From: Bacteroidota bacterium
GTDB taxonomy: Bacteria > Bacteroidota > Bacteroidia > Chitinophagales > Chitinophagaceae
Assembly (NCBI GenBank): GCA_018267875.1
Contig: JAFDXP010000078.1
Span: 1 to 64,000, forward strand
DNA: 64,000 bases
Direction: 5' to 3'
This document shows, in pieces, positions 8,120 through 43,572 of this stretch. The position numbers and the translations under genes were made by a program. The notes beneath the pieces were generated by a model. The model searched no databases. It was not told the DNA's origin and saw nothing but the letters and a program-made list of their open reading frames with translations. Each line of letters opens with the position of its first letter. The first letter of the stretch is position 1.

Positions 8120-9409
8120 ATGATTGATGTATTGCTTGGTTTGCAGTGGGGAGACGAAGGGAAAGGAAAAATCGTTGACTTCCTTGCTGCAAAATATGAT
8201 GTCATTGCCCGCTTTCAAGGTGGACCAAATGCCGGACACACCTTGTATGTAAACGGAAACAAAATAGTTCTTCATACCATTCCTTCAGGTGTTTTTCACC
8301 AACATTGCCTAAACCTTATTGGTAATGGCGTTGTGATTGACCCTGTCACTTTAAATAAAGAAATTGAAGCCATTGTTCCTTTACAATCAGACTTATTAAG
8401 TCGCCTCTTTGTTTCTCAACGTGCTCACATAATCATTCCTACTCATCGTGCGCTGGATGCAGCTTCTGAGTCATCAAAAGGTCATGAAAAAATAGGATCT
8501 ACCCTCAAAGGTATTGGGCCTGCTTACATGGATAAAACTGGCAGAAATGGACTGCGAGTAGGTGATATACTCAGCAAAAATTTTCGTCACAAATATGAAG
8601 CACTAAAGACTAAACATCTGGAGATTCTATCGCGATATGAACACGTCATTAATTGGGAAGAATTAGAAGCTCCTTTTTTTGATGCTATTGAAAAAATGCG
8701 CTCACTTCAGATTGTCAATGCAGAATATTGGCTCGATGATCAACTAAAATCTGGCAAAAACATCTTGGCAGAAGGAGCTCAAGGCAGTATGCTTGATATT
8801 GATTTTGGAACCTATCCTTACGTAACTTCCAGCAATACCATTGCAGGTGGCGTATGTAGTGGATTAGGCGTTTCTCCTTCAAAAGTTAGAGATGTTATTG
8901 GTATTACAAAAGCCTATTGCACACGTGTAGGAAGCGGTCCATTCCCTACCGAATTAGTAGGTGAAGAAGGTGATGCTTTACGTAAAGCCGGCGCAGAATT
9001 TGGTGCTACAACCGGCAGACCACGTCGCTGTGGTTGGTTAGACTTAGTTGCATTGAGATATGCCGTGATGTTAAGTGGAGTAACTAAACTCATCATCACG
9101 AAAGCCGATGTAATGGATGGATTTAACCCCATCAAAGCTGCCGTAGCCTATAACATAGAAGGAAAGGTTACTAAAGAATTGCCCTATGACCTTTGCGATG
9201 TTGATGTAGCACCTGTTTACAAGGAATTTTCCGGTTGGGATAACCCAATTGGACTTTGTAAAACTTTTGATGAATTGCCCGAAGTTTTTAAATCTTATTG
9301 TGCTTACGTTGCTCAATATTTAAACACTAACATTGCTTATATCAGTAATGGTACAGGACGAGACCAATTATTAAAAGTAATGTCAGAATTACCGTCTCCA
9401 ACAAGATAA
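8120..9409 (+). CDS. purA: Adenylosuccinate synthetase
   Basis: Condenses IMP and aspartate with GTP hydrolysis to adenylosuccinate, the first step from IMP to AMP. Motifs: GLQWGDEGKGKIVDFLA at residues 7-23 (catalytic Asp, P-loop-like GDEGKGK), GGPNAGHT near 34-41 (catalytic His), the IMP loop GTYPYVTSSNT, and ITKADVMDGF for the guanine. 429 residues is full length. It is followed 122 bases later by the Asp/Glu-rich gene and then pabB on the same strand. Confidence 0.97.
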   Translation: MIDVLLGLQWGDEGKGKIVDFLAAKYDVIARFQGGPNAGHTLYVNGNKIVLHTIPSGVFHQHCLNLIGNGVVIDPVTLNKEIEAIVPLQSDLLSRLFVSQRAHIIIPTHRALDAASESSKGHEKIGSTLKGIGPAYMDKTGRNGLRVGDILSKNFRHKYEALKTKHLEILSRYEHVINWEELEAPFFDAIEKMRSLQIVNAEYWLDDQLKSGKNILAEGAQGSMLDIDFGTYPYVTSSNTIAGGVCSGLGVSPSKVRDVIGITKAYCTRVGSGPFPTELVGEEGDALRKAGAEFGATTGRPRRCGWLDLVALRYAVMLSGVTKLIITKADVMDGFNPIKAAVAYNIEGKVTKELPYDLCDVDVAPVYKEFSGWDNPIGLCKTFDELPEVFKSYCAYVAQYLNTNIAYISNGTGRDQLLKVMSELPSPTR

Positions 9410-33992: not shown

Positions 33993-34736
33993 TTATTGTT
34001 TGTTCATCAGGCGCAAAACTTTTTCAATGTCTTCTGGTGTATCTATACAATGGCTGTCAAATTGTGTAATGGCACACTTGATTTTAAACCCATTTTCAAG
34101 CCATCGTAATTGCTCTAAAGACTCGGCTTTTTCTAAAGATGAAACCGGCAATTGGGTAATTTGTTCCAAGATGTCCGTTCGATAAGCATACATGCCTACG
34201 TGCCTATAATACGAATGATGTTCATGCCAATTTTTAAGGTCAACACCTTTTATATATGGTATAACCGCTCTACTGAAATAAAGAGCCTCCATGCGATGGT
34301 TTAGCGTAACTTTTACTTCGCCAAAATCAAACAACACTTCAGGGTCATTAACTGGAATGATGAGTGTTGCCAATTCAGTGTTTGCATCTTGCAAAACGGT
34401 TGCCAGTGTGTCTATTTGAGAAGGGTCAATATAGGGTTCATCACCTTGAATATTGATCACATATTGAGCGTTGATACTTATTTGTCTTAATGCATCCCAA
34501 CATCTATCCGTACCGCTTGGATGACCTGACTGGGTCATCACAACATTTCCGCCAAAGTGCTGTACATGGTCAAAAATACGGACATCATCTGTTGCAACAA
34601 CTACTTGATTTAATGATTTGCTCAGAGATGCTTGAGTATAAACTCGTTCAATCATAGACTTACCTTCAATTTTGATCAAAGGCTTACCCGGAAAGCGTGT
34701 TGAAGCATATCGGGCAGGGATAATTCCAACAATCAT
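33993..34736 (-). CDS. kdsB: 3-deoxy-manno-octulosonate cytidylyltransferase
   Basis: 247 residues. Activates Kdo with CTP to CMP-Kdo for lipopolysaccharide inner core. Start IIPARYASTRFPGKPL (nucleotide-binding signature), then VVVATDD and NIQGDEPYI, with a C-terminal SLEQLRWLENGF segment, all matching KdsB. Its ATG overlaps the stop of the preceding HAD phosphatase gene by four bases, so the two Kdo enzymes are coupled. Confidence 0.96.
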   Translation of the reverse strand: MIVGIIPARYASTRFPGKPLIKIEGKSMIERVYTQASLSKSLNQVVVATDDVRIFDHVQHFGGNVVMTQSGHPSGTDRCWDALRQISINAQYVINIQGDEPYIDPSQIDTLATVLQDANTELATLIIPVNDPEVLFDFGEVKVTLNHRMEALYFSRAVIPYIKGVDLKNWHEHHSYYRHVGMYAYRTDILEQITQLPVSSLEKAESLEQLRWLENGFKIKCAITQFDSHCIDTPEDIEKVLRLMNKQ

Positions 34737-35416
34737 ATTAGCTGTTTAGATATAGTTGAGTTAATACTGGTAAAAAATTCAGGCTCTGTTAATTGGCGTA
34801 ATTGTAAGTAGCGTTGATAAGTTTCCGTAAAGTTAATTCTATGATGAAGTGTATCGTCAAATTGTCCACCGAGGTGCATCAATAATTCTGCTATTTCTCG
34901 TACAGCATATTGCCCGCCATTTCCGAATGTAAGGTAATCTACCAGCTTATTTCTTATAGCATAGTCTGTCAGTAAAGAACTACCCGATCTATTAACCATA
35001 AAGCGAAGGCTAATTTTGGCTGCTACAGAAAAATCAAGTACATCATCAAAGGCAAATACAATCTCGTTATGTTTAATTCCTTTTGTGTGGCAAATATGAT
35101 CTAAGGCTTCTGTTTTAAACTTGATTCCGCTATATACTGCATCAAATTTTTCACGTCGGGCAAGGGATTGTGCCGCTGTATTATTCTCTCCGGAAATAAT
35201 GAAAACTTTGGGTAATCTTCCAGTTCGTAAATAATGGTTAAAACGTAACAAATTTGTCCCCATAGAATCAATTTCATTAAAAGGACTACTGCCATTTTCA
35301 TTTTTTTCTCCTCTATTAAATACACCATCCCAATCGAAGATATATGCGCTGACTGTCCTTAGTTTTTCTCTTATAATAGTAGGCTCAGTAAGAAATGTAC
35401 CCTTAAAATGTTCCAT
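34733..35416 (-). CDS. HAD phosphatase, KdsC-like (Kdo-8-phosphate phosphatase)
   Basis: 227 residues. HAD motif I is FDWDGVFNRGE (the KdsC-type DxDGV), motif II FIISGENN and motif IV FAFDDVLDF. KdsC removes phosphate from Kdo-8-P just before KdsB acts, and the four-base overlap with kdsB supports that role. The protein is longer than typical KdsC (about 170-190 residues) by a C-terminal extension of unknown role, so specificity is inferred from context. Confidence 0.78.
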   Translation of the reverse strand: MEHFKGTFLTEPTIIREKLRTVSAYIFDWDGVFNRGEKNENGSSPFNEIDSMGTNLLRFNHYLRTGRLPKVFIISGENNTAAQSLARREKFDAVYSGIKFKTEALDHICHTKGIKHNEIVFAFDDVLDFSVAAKISLRFMVNRSGSSLLTDYAIRNKLVDYLTFGNGGQYAVREIAELLMHLGGQFDDTLHHRINFTETYQRYLQLRQLTEPEFFTSINSTISKQLI

Positions 35417-35610: not shown

Positions 35611-36624
35611 CTAAAGCGCATCTAAATCTTGAATGTCCAACATACCAACCGGTTTACCATTTTCTGTAATCAAAATAGTGTCAACATTTGTCTTTTTAAA
35701 TAGTAAATGTGCATCGTTTAATAAGGCAGATGTTTCAATACTGATGGGGCTTTTATATTCCATATCGCCCATCTTCTTATTTAGAATATTTTCGCCATCT
35801 TGTTGTAACAAACGACGGATATCACCATCGGTAAATACACCTTTTAAGGAGCCGTCCCCGTTCACTACTGTTACTGCACCAAAGCCATATTCAGTCATTT
35901 TGATGATAGCTTCTTTCAAATTAGTATCAGCTTTCACAATGGGATTTACGCCATTAGCTGCTTCACCAACTCGAACAGTCATTAATCTGGTATCTTGAAG
36001 GAATTGTTCCGTTCCAATTGTTGTGAAATTATTTTCTGTCAAGCTTTTCAGCACTTTTAGCGGAACAGTAATTGTGTGCACACCAATATTAATAGCATTG
36101 CGTACATGTTCTGCATGTCTAACTGAAGAAAACATAATTTTCGTATTGTAACCATACTGATAAACAGCATTTACGCATTGTTCAACTAAAGCAAGAGCAT
36201 CATGTCCTTGATCTTGCAAACGCCCAACTAAGGGACATACGTATGTTGCTCCGGCGTGCATAGCCATGTATGCTTGTTGCAGTGTATATACAAGGTGTAC
36301 ATTTACTAATAAGCCTTCTTTTCGCAACAAATAACAAGCACGTGTTCCTTCAAGAGAAACAGGTATTTTAAAAACCGTGCGCTGCGGATCAAGACCCAAA
36401 TCTAATTGGCGTTTTGCTTCTGCTACTACATCTTCTGCCGTTTTGCCTAATGCCTCAATTTGCAATACAGGAACCATTTTCGATAGCTTGACGATCGTAC
36501 CGTCAATATCTGTAATGCCTTCACGTTGCATAAAGGTTGGTGTGGTAGTCAGTCCATTTAAGTAGCCTAGTTTGAAACCTTCTTCAATTTCTTTAAGATT
36601 GGCGGAGTCAAGATATAATTCCAT
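35611..36624 (-). CDS. Transaldolase / fructose-6-phosphate aldolase-like domain fused to two KdsD-type CBS domains
   Basis: 337 residues. Residues 1-215 are a TalC/FSA-type barrel: MELYLDSA (Asp6), FKIP with the Schiff-base Lys86, and FSSVRHAEHV. Two normally conserved active-site positions differ: TTNP reads TTTP (Thr28, codon ACA) and the NVT segment reads NVH. Residues about 225-337 are two CBS repeats (GVFTDGDIRRLLQ; GKPVGMLDIQDLDAL) very like those at the C terminus of arabinose-5-phosphate isomerase KdsD. The Kdo genes kdsC-kdsB lie 200 bases downstream. I infer a sugar-phosphate aldolase, or a non-catalytic derivative, regulated by a nucleotide or CMP-Kdo through CBS. The reaction is not proven. 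Confidence 0.85.
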   Translation of the reverse strand: MELYLDSANLKEIEEGFKLGYLNGLTTTPTFMQREGITDIDGTIVKLSKMVPVLQIEALGKTAEDVVAEAKRQLDLGLDPQRTVFKIPVSLEGTRACYLLRKEGLLVNVHLVYTLQQAYMAMHAGATYVCPLVGRLQDQGHDALALVEQCVNAVYQYGYNTKIMFSSVRHAEHVRNAINIGVHTITVPLKVLKSLTENNFTTIGTEQFLQDTRLMTVRVGEAANGVNPIVKADTNLKEAIIKMTEYGFGAVTVVNGDGSLKGVFTDGDIRRLLQQDGENILNKKMGDMEYKSPISIETSALLNDAHLLFKKTNVDTILITENGKPVGMLDIQDLDAL

Positions 36625-39199: not shown

Positions 39200-41068
39200 T
39201 TACTTAGCGATAAAGATTGGAACGGTTACCAAATGACGAACGCGATTGATAGTTTCGCCCAACACAAAATCCTTAATTGCTTTATGTCCATGACTACCTA
39301 ATATTAGCAAATCAGCCTCGCTTTCTTTTACTAAACGAGCGATTTCTCCGGAGCGATTTCTATACCCAAGTACTGCATCTGCTTTATGCTGATATTGTTC
39401 AAAAAATTGAACATACGCTGCCAACATTTTTCGGTCTTCCCGTGTTTCATAATCTTCACTATTTGCACCAATCAATTTAGCGGACGCGCTTTCCACAACA
39501 TGGATCAACACAAACTCAGTGTCTGGATTGGCAAATTGAAGTGCATACTGAATAACGGTTTTATCCTTGTGGCTAAAGTCTAAAGCAAGCGCAATCTTTC
39601 TAAAGTTTGAAGTATGAATTGTGTTTAGCTCTTCCATAATTACATCATTATGAATTCGACTTTCAGCTTGTTTTCTGCGTAAGAAAAGTGGATAAACGAA
39701 AGTAATAATCAACAAAAGTATTAGCCCTATTTCAGTTCCGATAATTATGAACTTTACCGCAACTGAATTTGTACGATGAAGCCATTCTAAAGCTGTTTCA
39801 TATACCAATTTAAGATTTAGTGAAACTATTACAATTGCAATAAGCCAACCGGCAAGTTTTGTTTTTTTATTGATGGCAAATATGCCCATATTCTTTTTGT
39901 CACTCACAAAATGTATGAGCGGAATAACGGCAAAGGCAAGCTGCATACTGAGCAACACCTGGCTGAACACCAACATCTCATCTACCATACCATCTCCAAA
40001 ATAAAGGATTGTTAACACTGCCGGAACTATAGCTAACAAACGAGTAAGCAACCTTCGTGCCCAAGGGTTCATTCGTAAGCGTAAATAGCCTTCCATCACA
40101 ATTTGACCAGCAAGCGTACCTGTAACAGTAGAACTTTGTCCAGCAGCAATCAAGGCAATAGCAAAAAGATGAGAAGCCCATTTACTACCCATCAGTGGAG
40201 CCAGTAATTGATGAGCATCACCTAATGAGGCAACCGTTGTGTGCCCACTTTTAAAAAAAACTGCTGCCGCTAAAATCAAAATAGCTGCATTGACAAAAAA
40301 AGCTGCGTTTAAGGCTATCACGCTATCCCAAACATTCAGACGTATTGCTCTTCGGATAGACACATCATCCCGATTGATTTTTCGGGTCTGTACTAATGCA
40401 GAATGTAAGTATAAATTGTGTGGCATTACCGTTGCACCTATGATGCCAATGGCAATGTATAGTGCTGTAAAATTGGGTAAAGAAGGAATAAACCCTCGTG
40501 CTATTTCTTGCATGTCGGGTTTTGCCAAAAAAATCTCGACCATAAAACAAACACTAATTATGGCTATCAAAGCAATTATAAAAGCCTCCATTTTTCTCAT
40601 ACCAAGGCGTTGCAGGTAGAGTAGCAAAATAGTATCCAGCAAAGTGATGCAAACACCCCATAAAAGTGGAATGCCAAGCAATAAGTTCAACCCTACTGCC
40701 ATGCCCAACACTTCTGCTAAATCACAAGCGGCAATAGCTATTTCAGCTAAGATATAAAGAATGAAATTGACACCTCGTGGATAAGTTTCTCTGTTACACT
40801 GAGCTAAATCACGCCCTAAAACAATTCCTAAACGAGCACTGAGAGATTGTAGCAAGAGTGCCATCAAATTACTCATCAATAATACCCAAATCAAGGTGTA
40901 GCCAAATTGACTTCCCCCCGCCAAATCAGTTGCCCAATTGCCCGGATCCATATAACCTACGCTAATTAAATAGGCTGGTCCAAAAAAGGCTGCTATTCGT
41001 CGCCAACCTTTATTTGAAGCTGAAGGATCAATACTTTCGTGAACATCATGAAGCGATTTGTGGGTCAT
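39200..41068 (-). CDS. mntH: Nramp divalent metal transporter with C-terminal UspA domain
   Basis: 622 residues from ATG 41068; the longer TTG start at 41116 would add 16 residues overlapping the YfhO gene and is unlikely. The Nramp core (about 25-440, 11-12 helices) has the metal-binding DPGNWATD (41-48) and GATVMPHNLYLHS motifs, as in proton-coupled Mn(II)/Fe(II) importers. Residues about 485-622 form a universal stress protein domain (RKIALALDFSHKDKTVI ... LLILGSHGHKAIKDFVLG) with the GxxGH(x)9G ATP-binding-like pattern. The fusion suggests nucleotide-linked control of metal uptake. Confidence 0.92.
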   Translation of the reverse strand: MTHKSLHDVHESIDPSASNKGWRRIAAFFGPAYLISVGYMDPGNWATDLAGGSQFGYTLIWVLLMSNLMALLLQSLSARLGIVLGRDLAQCNRETYPRGVNFILYILAEIAIAACDLAEVLGMAVGLNLLLGIPLLWGVCITLLDTILLLYLQRLGMRKMEAFIIALIAIISVCFMVEIFLAKPDMQEIARGFIPSLPNFTALYIAIGIIGATVMPHNLYLHSALVQTRKINRDDVSIRRAIRLNVWDSVIALNAAFFVNAAILILAAAVFFKSGHTTVASLGDAHQLLAPLMGSKWASHLFAIALIAAGQSSTVTGTLAGQIVMEGYLRLRMNPWARRLLTRLLAIVPAVLTILYFGDGMVDEMLVFSQVLLSMQLAFAVIPLIHFVSDKKNMGIFAINKKTKLAGWLIAIVIVSLNLKLVYETALEWLHRTNSVAVKFIIIGTEIGLILLLIITFVYPLFLRRKQAESRIHNDVIMEELNTIHTSNFRKIALALDFSHKDKTVIQYALQFANPDTEFVLIHVVESASAKLIGANSEDYETREDRKMLAAYVQFFEQYQHKADAVLGYRNRSGEIARLVKESEADLLILGSHGHKAIKDFVLGETINRVRHLVTVPIFIAK

Positions 41069-41091
41069 ACTGTGGGTGTGGTTAAGAGGAA

Positions 41092-43572
41092 TTACAAATC
41101 GTCGGTAACAGAGCAAGATTCCGGTTCTGTTTGTTTAATTCCGGCATAAATGCCCATACACAAAAGTGCAATCAAAATCAAGCTACTCACCATTGCTACA
41201 TTATTGCCAGTTGTGAAACTTGAAGGGCGGAAATGAAATTCAATTCGCTTACTGTTTGCCGGTACTTTCAATGCCCGAAGAACATAGTTTACTCGTAAGA
41301 TTTCTGCTGGTTTACCATCTATTGTTGCTTCCCAACCATAAGGGTACCAAATATCAGAGAATACAGCCAAGCCATTTTGTGTATTTTGGGATTCAAAGAT
41401 GAGATCATTCAAGCCATATCGCAACAATTTAATTGAAGAGATGCTGTCTTTGCTAAAAGCATAATTATTTAGCTGTGCGTGATAATGGTCGCGAAAAATA
41501 GCTGTACGTTTCGGATCAAATTCATTTGGTACCATTGCTGTATCGCCCAAAGAAGTTGCATGAAGCAAATTCATTTCTTCATCAGCTGTTTTTGCCCATT
41601 TTATATCGTTCACAAACCAAGCATTGCCCAAGGCTGCATTGTTGGGTTGATAAACAGGGCCCTGTTGACCGGCATTAAAGATGATATATTTAGTATTGAG
41701 CATGTTTAGCACTTGTGAATTAAACTTGCCTTGTGTATGTGAACCCCCCATTTGCATGTCAATCAAATCTTGATAGATTTCCATTTTGGCAGGAGAATAT
41801 CCGCCTATACATTTATGGAAGTATGCTTGCACCGCATCATTGTAGGTGTTTTTTGAAAGATCGAGTACCCGATAGTATGGGTCTTTATCTTGCATGATTT
41901 GTTTATCAACAGGACGAGGTTGAAATAATGCTTCGTAATCGGTAGCGTCTTCGTAATTACTTTCTCCTAAAAAATTTTTATCTACCGATATCAAATCAAC
42001 GGCTACTAAAATGCCAATACCGGCAATTAGCATTGTTTTATTTGCTTTAGACTTGATGAATACCCAAATTAATCCTGCGGCAAGTATGATAAACACGGCA
42101 CTGGTTAATCCGCTCTTAGTTGCCAAGCTTGCACGGTCATTTTTTAAAGCACCCATGATTTGTTGTGGTAATTGAGCATCATTTGTTGGGTTGGAGAAAT
42201 CAAAAAATAGACTACCGCCGAAGCCAAGTAAAATACAAATACCGGCAGTGATACCTGCTGCTACTTTCAACTTTTTAAGTACTTCCTCCTCTGAAATTTT
42301 CTTTCTTAAAATTTCAGACAAACCCCAAATTCCTACTAATGGAAAAAGTAATTGTGGCACCACTAAGATCATTGTAGGAGTACGAAACTTATTGTACATC
42401 GGTAAATGATCGAACAGCCAATAGTTAAGCCCTGCAAAGTTTTTACCCCAAGACATCATAATAGTTAAAACGCAAACAGAAAGAATCCACCATTTATGCG
42501 AACTACGAATCACCATCATGCCTAACACAAAGAGAAAACAAACAATAGCACCAAAATATACTGGTCCGGAAACAAAAGGCTGAGGACCCCAATACATCGG
42601 AATTGCTGATGCCTGAGAACCTACCATCGCCTCCGTTTCAGGAGCTTTGTCAATTGGCATACTGGATGAACCTCCATACAGATTAGGTATCAACAAGCAA
42701 AACGTTTCACCAATACCATTGCTCCATTGAAAAGCATAATCTTTATCTAATCCGCCTGCCTTTTTGTTTGCATCGTGATTGATAGTCAGTTCGCTTTCAC
42801 CTCCACGCATGGTTGTCTTAGCATATTCTTTGGTAGTGAGAATGGAAGCCATACTTGTTCCTAAACCAATGCCGGCAATGATACCAGAAAGCAGCGTTGC
42901 GACAATAAATTGTTTGAAATTTCCCTTATTTTGAAGGATTGATATCAATTTACCAATCCAATAAAAACCCAGCATGATGAAGGCGTAGTACAAAACCTGA
43001 TAGTGATTGGTGCCTACTAACAGAGCCATTGAAATACCCAACAAAGCCGCTCCAGTCAACCATTTTCCTCTAAAGACCATGATAACACCGGCAAAAACAG
43101 CAGGCATATAACCAATGGCAAGCATTTTTGTGTCATGTCCGGCACTGATTATTACAACATTGTAGGTTGCAAAGGCATAAGCTACGCTGCCAATCAACGC
43201 TAACCAACGATCAATTTTCATAACAAGCATCAGCACATAAAAACAAAGCATAGCCAGAAAAAGAAAATGTGCCGGCTTTGCTAAAAAGCCCGTCAGCACA
43301 GTTTGCAAGTGTCCTACATAATTTTTGTTTTCAGGAATACCAATGGTGTAGTTAGGCATTCCGCCAAACATGCTATTTGTCCAAAGCGGATTGATACCGG
43401 TACTGTCGTGATAGGCTTCGGTTTCATGATACATGGCCTTCCACGAAATGTTATCATGTTGACTAAGAACCTTTCCTTGAAGGGCGGGATAACAATATAA
43501 AAGTGCTAAAGCTGCAAAACCGATGATGATATAAACATGCGGAAGTAACTTTTTAAAATCGAAAGACTGCAT
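41092..43572 (-). CDS. YfhO family polytopic membrane protein
   Basis: 826 residues with about 12 or more membrane helices in the first 530 residues (starting at about 12-29) followed by a long extracytoplasmic part and a final helix near 790-812. Family-like segments: QHDNISWKAMYHETEAYH, MFGGMPNY, and the C-terminal GWEATIDGKPAEILRVNYVL. YfhO-type proteins are linked to glycosylation of cell-wall or lipoteichoic polymers in Gram-positives; the Bacteroidota role is unclear. It lies 23 bases upstream of mntH. Confidence 0.85.
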   Translation of the reverse strand: MQSFDFKKLLPHVYIIIGFAALALLYCYPALQGKVLSQHDNISWKAMYHETEAYHDSTGINPLWTNSMFGGMPNYTIGIPENKNYVGHLQTVLTGFLAKPAHFLFLAMLCFYVLMLVMKIDRWLALIGSVAYAFATYNVVIISAGHDTKMLAIGYMPAVFAGVIMVFRGKWLTGAALLGISMALLVGTNHYQVLYYAFIMLGFYWIGKLISILQNKGNFKQFIVATLLSGIIAGIGLGTSMASILTTKEYAKTTMRGGESELTINHDANKKAGGLDKDYAFQWSNGIGETFCLLIPNLYGGSSSMPIDKAPETEAMVGSQASAIPMYWGPQPFVSGPVYFGAIVCFLFVLGMMVIRSSHKWWILSVCVLTIMMSWGKNFAGLNYWLFDHLPMYNKFRTPTMILVVPQLLFPLVGIWGLSEILRKKISEEEVLKKLKVAAGITAGICILLGFGGSLFFDFSNPTNDAQLPQQIMGALKNDRASLATKSGLTSAVFIILAAGLIWVFIKSKANKTMLIAGIGILVAVDLISVDKNFLGESNYEDATDYEALFQPRPVDKQIMQDKDPYYRVLDLSKNTYNDAVQAYFHKCIGGYSPAKMEIYQDLIDMQMGGSHTQGKFNSQVLNMLNTKYIIFNAGQQGPVYQPNNAALGNAWFVNDIKWAKTADEEMNLLHATSLGDTAMVPNEFDPKRTAIFRDHYHAQLNNYAFSKDSISSIKLLRYGLNDLIFESQNTQNGLAVFSDIWYPYGWEATIDGKPAEILRVNYVLRALKVPANSKRIEFHFRPSSFTTGNNVAMVSSLILIALLCMGIYAGIKQTEPESCSVTDDL

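Follow-up and report, generated by a model that had tools for sequence, protein, structure and literature searches.

Nearly all Gram-negative bacteria make Kdo, an essential sugar of lipopolysaccharide, whose synthesis requires the activities of KdsD, KdsA, KdsC and KdsB; of these, KdsD is regarded as the entry enzyme. In the genome considered here, genes for Kdo synthesis are accompanied by a gene encoding a transaldolase-type barrel joined to a CBS pair of the kind carried by KdsD, which raises the question of what such a protein contributes to the pathway. A search of the open literature yielded no description of a transaldolase-CBS fusion that takes part in Kdo synthesis, or of a transaldolase and CBS domains in connection with D-arabinose 5-phosphate (A5P); a 2010 survey of Kdo2-lipid A genes leaves KdsD unmentioned.

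A transaldolase-type barrel fused to a KdsD-type CBS pair

The window, by which we mean the whole stretch of 64,000 nucleotides that was analysed, is contig 75 of a 2.76-Mb genome that is 99% complete. Positions 35611-36624 of its minus strand encode a protein of 337 amino acids, henceforth referred to as TAL-CBS, which we propose to be an A5P-forming enzyme. Its barrel (residues 1-213; 35986-36624, minus strand) matches the Pfam family TAL_FSA (PF00923) over residues 3-201 with 119.6 bits, and the nearest solved structures by sequence are the small transaldolases 1vpx, 3r8r and 3s0c, which are also the structures matched by an AlphaFold2 model of the protein (mean pLDDT 87). The CBS pair (residues 224-334; 35623-35955, minus strand; PF00571, 59 bits) matches the C-terminal part of the KdsD model TIGR00393 with 56.7 bits; its best NCBIfam CBS matches are kpsF, KdsD and GutQ, its best PDB chain is 4o9k, titled ‘Arabinose 5-phosphate isomerase’ (E 2e-14), and the A5P isomerases 3k2v and 3fna are matched as well. 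The Pfam, NCBIfam and PDB matches thereby agree with the original prediction that a TalC/FSA-type barrel is fused here to CBS domains of KdsD type. The open reading frame is under strong purifying selection: comparison with the nearest homologue gave a dN of 0.013 and a dS of 0.61, and comparison with the other homologues tested gave dN values of 0.09-0.17 with dS saturated.

TAL-CBS lies upstream of two genes on the same strand, which overlap each other by 4 bases. The first, HAD2 (34733-35416), is separated from TAL-CBS by 194 bases, adjoins it in most relatives and encodes a divergent KdsC-like phosphatase, which resembles PDB entries 2p9j and 3n07, has no Pfam match and scores 44.8 bits against a KdsC (TIGR01670) cut-off of 106.95. 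The second (33993-34736) is the CMP-Kdo synthetase gene kdsB, with 218.8 bits against a TIGR00466 cut-off of 155.2. The original prediction had placed the fusion about 200 bases from kdsC-kdsB; the distance and kdsB hold, but the presumed kdsC is this divergent HAD gene. Elsewhere in the window (39200-41116, minus strand) an Nramp-type metal transporter (PF01566) carries a universal stress protein domain (PF00582) fused to its C-terminus.

The donor end of the active site is remodelled

The active site of E. coli FSA (PMC13259622) has Asp6 and Asn28 as donor contacts, Lys85 as the Schiff-base residue, Gln59, Thr109 and Tyr131 to hold the catalytic water, and Ala129 in the wall of the donor pocket. 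The counterparts of these residues in TAL-CBS are Asp6 and Thr28, Lys86, Glu57, His110 and Leu132, and Cys130, respectively. Reading the codons on the minus strand, together with an alignment of homologues, bears out that the Schiff-base lysine of the family is kept (Lys86, AAA, 36367-36369) and that the two substitutions first noticed are real, namely Thr28 (ACA, 36541-36543) for the Asn of TalC/FSA and His110 of the NVH motif (CAC, 36295-36297) for the catalytic-water Thr. The alteration is, however, larger than these two residues: Cys130-Pro131-Leu132 (36229-36237, with TGT for Cys130 and TTA for Leu132) stands where TalC has Ser-Pro-Phe, so that the whole donor end differs. Thr28, His110, Cys130 and Leu132 are invariant in 83 aligned homologues, one of which is only 69% identical, as are Asp6, Glu57, Lys86, Asn108 and the phosphate-site residues Arg135, Ser167 and Arg169. 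This invariance rules out an ordinary transaldolase that has acquired random substitutions. Asn28, Thr110, Ser130 and Phe132 are retained in the ordinary TalC proteins of this bacterial family, among them the product of a second TAL gene in the window genome.

A5P is F6P without the C1 hydroxymethyl group, and its remaining carbons have the same configuration. The residues retained in TAL-CBS are those that handle the phosphate, the hydroxyls in the middle of the sugar and the chemistry of the lysine, and the replaced ones surround the donor C1 and the catalytic water. Since the kept and changed residues split exactly along the line that separates A5P from F6P, the pocket looks as it should if A5P were substrate or product.

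By these features TAL-CBS falls between two families. With the TalC/FSA transaldolases (PF00923, TIGR00875) it shares the barrel, Lys86, Asp6, Glu57 (Glu60 of TAL), Asn108 and the Arg135/Ser167/Arg169 set, and it differs from them in being only 33-36% identical, in scoring 163.8 bits against a curated TIGR00875 cut-off of 245.95, in lacking the donor and catalytic-water residues (Asn28, Thr109/110, Ala/Ser129/130 and Tyr/Phe131/132, here Thr, His, Cys and Leu), and in having a C-terminal CBS pair and a place in a Kdo operon. With KdsD, GutQ and KpsF (TIGR00393) it shares the C-terminal CBS pair and the association with Kdo genes, but it has no SIS isomerase domain (only model positions 162-267 are matched) and its catalytic fold is unrelated. 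TAL-CBS is thus built on TalC yet departs from it in both model score and defining residues, and stands outside the KdsD family although its phylogenetic complementarity to KdsD, described below, suggests the same role.

TAL-CBS belongs to a Kdo operon

When 84,980 species genomes were scanned, 490 stretches proved to encode a relative. Among the best 80 of these (78% identity or more), for which titles were looked at, all are of Bacteroidota type, the nearest being of the Taibaiella, Flavipsychrobacter and Chitinophagaceae kind, except for one titled only ‘bacterium’ and one Azovibrio. The latter, a metagenome-assembled contig titled Azovibrio restrictus, encodes a TAL-CBS 87% identical to that of the window and is probably a mis-binned Bacteroidota contig. 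The complete order kdsA-TALCBS-HAD2-kdsB was found in 33 of the 80 named loci, a further 39 have TAL-CBS with at least one of kdsA, HAD2 and kdsB on the same strand, and TAL-CBS stands alone in 8; the Kdo operon or part of it is therefore present in 72 of 80. As the operon recurs in many genera, a chance neighbourhood can be ruled out. Homologues carrying the ordinary TTNP and NVT motifs without a link to Kdo genes would have spoken against a changed reaction linked to Kdo; instead, the variant residues are invariant and the operon is conserved. In loci L053, L195 and L199 (G026:C29) the kdsA upstream of TAL-CBS is in two reading-frame pieces, due either to a sequencing error or to a broken gene.

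The partner genes are themselves distinctive. In 200 genomes of the bacterial family, the kdsA of TAL-CBS genomes forms a separate clade (clade 2), which is 41-48% identical to the kdsA of most KdsD-bearing relatives (quick tree, full support), retains the A5P-site motif KxSFxKxNRS and was found in exactly the 19 genomes that carry TAL-CBS, which indicates that a whole module was exchanged. The window genome also has its kdsA, although elsewhere, on contig 81 near waaA. The partner HAD scores below the KdsC cut-off, whereas KdsD-bearing sister species mostly have a canonical KdsC at or near it. All 19 genomes contain waaA, and so they need CMP-Kdo. One bacterial family holds two deeply separate kdsA clades, clade 2 going with TAL-CBS there and with KdsD in one genome of another family (G442, see below).

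TAL-CBS and KdsD nearly exclude each other

The 19 family genomes carry full-length TAL-CBS orthologues of 73-98% identity, and the next matches are ordinary TalC proteins of at most 36%. When KdsD was called by TIGR00393 above cut-off, 170 of the 200 family genomes had it, namely 168 of the 181 that lack TAL-CBS but no more than 2 of the 19 that carry it (Fisher p ~1e-14 for all family genomes and ~1e-17 for those at least 90% complete, values that ignore kinship). Thirteen family genomes have neither, only 3 of which are at least 90% complete. Both states occur within each of six genera (g13, g26, g35, g36, g86 and g96), which implies that the exchange probably happened repeatedly. The same pattern was seen in a phylum sample of 346 genomes: five of them, belonging to three families, carry full-length TAL-CBS, and each of these five has kdsA but lacks KdsD; only four others with kdsA over cut-off are without KdsD. 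Two genomes, G130 and G086, have TAL-CBS and KdsD together, which counts against replacement.

Assembly gaps can be ruled out as the reason for the missing KdsD, since one genome with the operon and no KdsD (G172) consists of a single contig of 3,322,193 bases and completeness reaches 95% or more in nearly every TAL-CBS genome. A separate kdsD, which it had been proposed to look for, is absent from the window genome: an SIS search returned GlmS, with two domains, GmhA and a PGI/PMI-like protein and nothing else, and the TIGR00393 matches were the TAL-CBS CBS pair itself, IMPDH, the SIS domain of GmhA and a small CBS protein, so that a hidden KdsD was rejected. Five genomes (G220, G463, G392, G492 and G090) have kdsA and neither TAL-CBS nor KdsD over cut-off, reflecting either a third source of A5P or assembly gaps.

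A comparison within family f10 gives an independent indication. In G382, TAL-CBS is present and KdsD is absent. G442 shows the reverse, and its operon runs kdsA (clade 2)-HAD2-kdsB with a gap of 95 bases at the position that TAL-CBS occupies in relatives. That clade 2 kdsA and HAD2 work with either KdsD or TAL-CBS argues that both supply A5P. In one locus (L200) the gap between kdsA and HAD2 at the TAL-CBS site of relatives (~8728-8821) is filled by an inverted repeat (TGTCGGGTTCTCAAACCCGACA and its partner).

TAL-CBS as a candidate A5P synthase

With KdsA, a KdsC-like HAD and KdsB accounted for in the module, TAL-CBS would by elimination fill the KdsD step. Because kdsA and HAD2 changed together with TAL-CBS, the link to KdsD depends on this elimination and on the one KdsD-bearing operon of G442. 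Several features read from sequence, namely the fusion, the remodelled site, the place in a Kdo operon, the rarity of genomes that combine TAL-CBS with KdsD, and the fact that kdsA, kdsB and waaA are present, point to TAL-CBS making the A5P used by KdsA in these Bacteroidota as a non-orthologous replacement of the missing KdsD, a reading to which we assign a probability of roughly three in four; its product, its reaction and feedback control via the CBS pair are inferred. We hold it likely, with nearly the same confidence, that a class-I aldolase barrel became a dedicated, feedback-regulated A5P synthase, whether it works as an isomerase, a 2-epimerase or an aldolase, and that it took the place of KdsD on repeated occasions across the Bacteroidota. 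The idea of a changed reaction tied to Kdo is strongly supported by the invariant variant residues and the conserved linkage; as the separate kdsD is absent, the best reading goes beyond the suggestion that pentose or hexose phosphates are steered towards Kdo, in that TAL-CBS itself seems to carry out the step of KdsD.

The most likely reaction would be the one that KdsD performs, the isomerisation of Ru5P to A5P, in which Glu57 and His110 could shift the proton while Lys86 polarises the C1 carbonyl. Isomerisation is the most economical route because the module has spread to many hosts without an extra gene and Ru5P is universal, and about half of our confidence in A5P synthesis by TAL-CBS goes to it, the rest being shared by two other routes. 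One is C2-epimerisation of R5P through a Lys86 imine, which would be chemically possible, although we know of no precedent for it. Activity would be adjusted through the CBS pair by a product of the Kdo pathway; feedback by one such as CMP-Kdo is likely, given the resemblance of the CBS pair to that of KdsD.

The other route, itself a form of A5P synthesis by TAL-CBS, is less favoured but a serious rival: a glycolaldehyde enamine on Lys86 would add to glyceraldehyde 3-phosphate to give A5P directly, which would make the protein a natural A5P aldolase. Invariant Lys86 and Asp6 would fit aldolase chemistry better than isomerisation, and the pocket for the C1 hydroxymethyl group is lost. Free glycolaldehyde is, however, scarce in normal metabolism, no gene for making it accompanies the module, and the catalytic-water Thr that FSA retains is His in TAL-CBS. 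E. coli FsaA, of the same fold family, serves as a D-arabinose 5-phosphate aldolase on glycolaldehyde and glyceraldehyde 3-phosphate, but as a side activity exploited in engineered pathways, with a different donor pocket, no CBS domains and no link to Kdo genes (PMC9947464).

It is improbable that TAL-CBS is a transaldolase variant which acts on sugars of the F6P/S7P type and tunes pentose phosphates, in bacteria that could dispense with KdsD since their A5P came from GlmS or some other enzyme. Its TalC-like fold and Schiff-base Lys would suit such a protein, and eukaryotic GFAT, a dual-function SIS-domain enzyme, can isomerise Ru5P and so offers a route to A5P other than KdsD, although it is not a dedicated substitute within a Kdo operon; E. 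coli lacking both KdsD and GutQ nevertheless requires A5P despite having GlmS (PMC11301363), which makes GlmS alone an unlikely source. Moreover, all four of Asn28, Thr110, Ser130 and Phe132 are invariantly substituted, the window genome already has an ordinary TalC, and the exclusion of KdsD would be left unexplained. We consider it equally improbable that the module yields another five-carbon or other sugar phosphate and, in the end, a Kdo analogue: the separate kdsA clade and the divergent HAD gene could be taken that way, but kdsB scores above cut-off, waaA is universal among the 19 genomes, kdsA keeps its A5P-site motif, and the same kdsA, HAD2 and kdsB accompany KdsD in G442. Least credible is a protein without catalytic activity that acts as a sensor for the Kdo operon or regulates it, the purely regulatory role once entertained, for which the four substituted active-site residues might speak, since the 83 homologues invariably keep Lys86, Asp6, Glu57, Asn108 and the Arg/Ser/Arg set that binds phosphate, and the KdsD step would stay empty in the one-contig genome G172.

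Implications for Kdo synthesis in Bacteroidota

Overall, the genomic evidence indicates that many Kdo-making Bacteroidota without KdsD carry TAL-CBS, usually in the Kdo operon and probably with A5P as its product, and that TAL-CBS has most likely replaced the first enzyme of Kdo synthesis without this having been recognised. If so, it would constitute a second natural, dedicated route into Kdo, a natural enzyme for A5P production, and an example of a C-C lyase barrel recruited to another step while the CBS control stayed the same; should the reaction be Ru5P isomerisation, TAL-CBS would possibly be the first aldose-ketose isomerase on a transaldolase fold. A KdsD-free route, if widespread, would close a gap in the pathway as annotated for many species of Bacteroidota.
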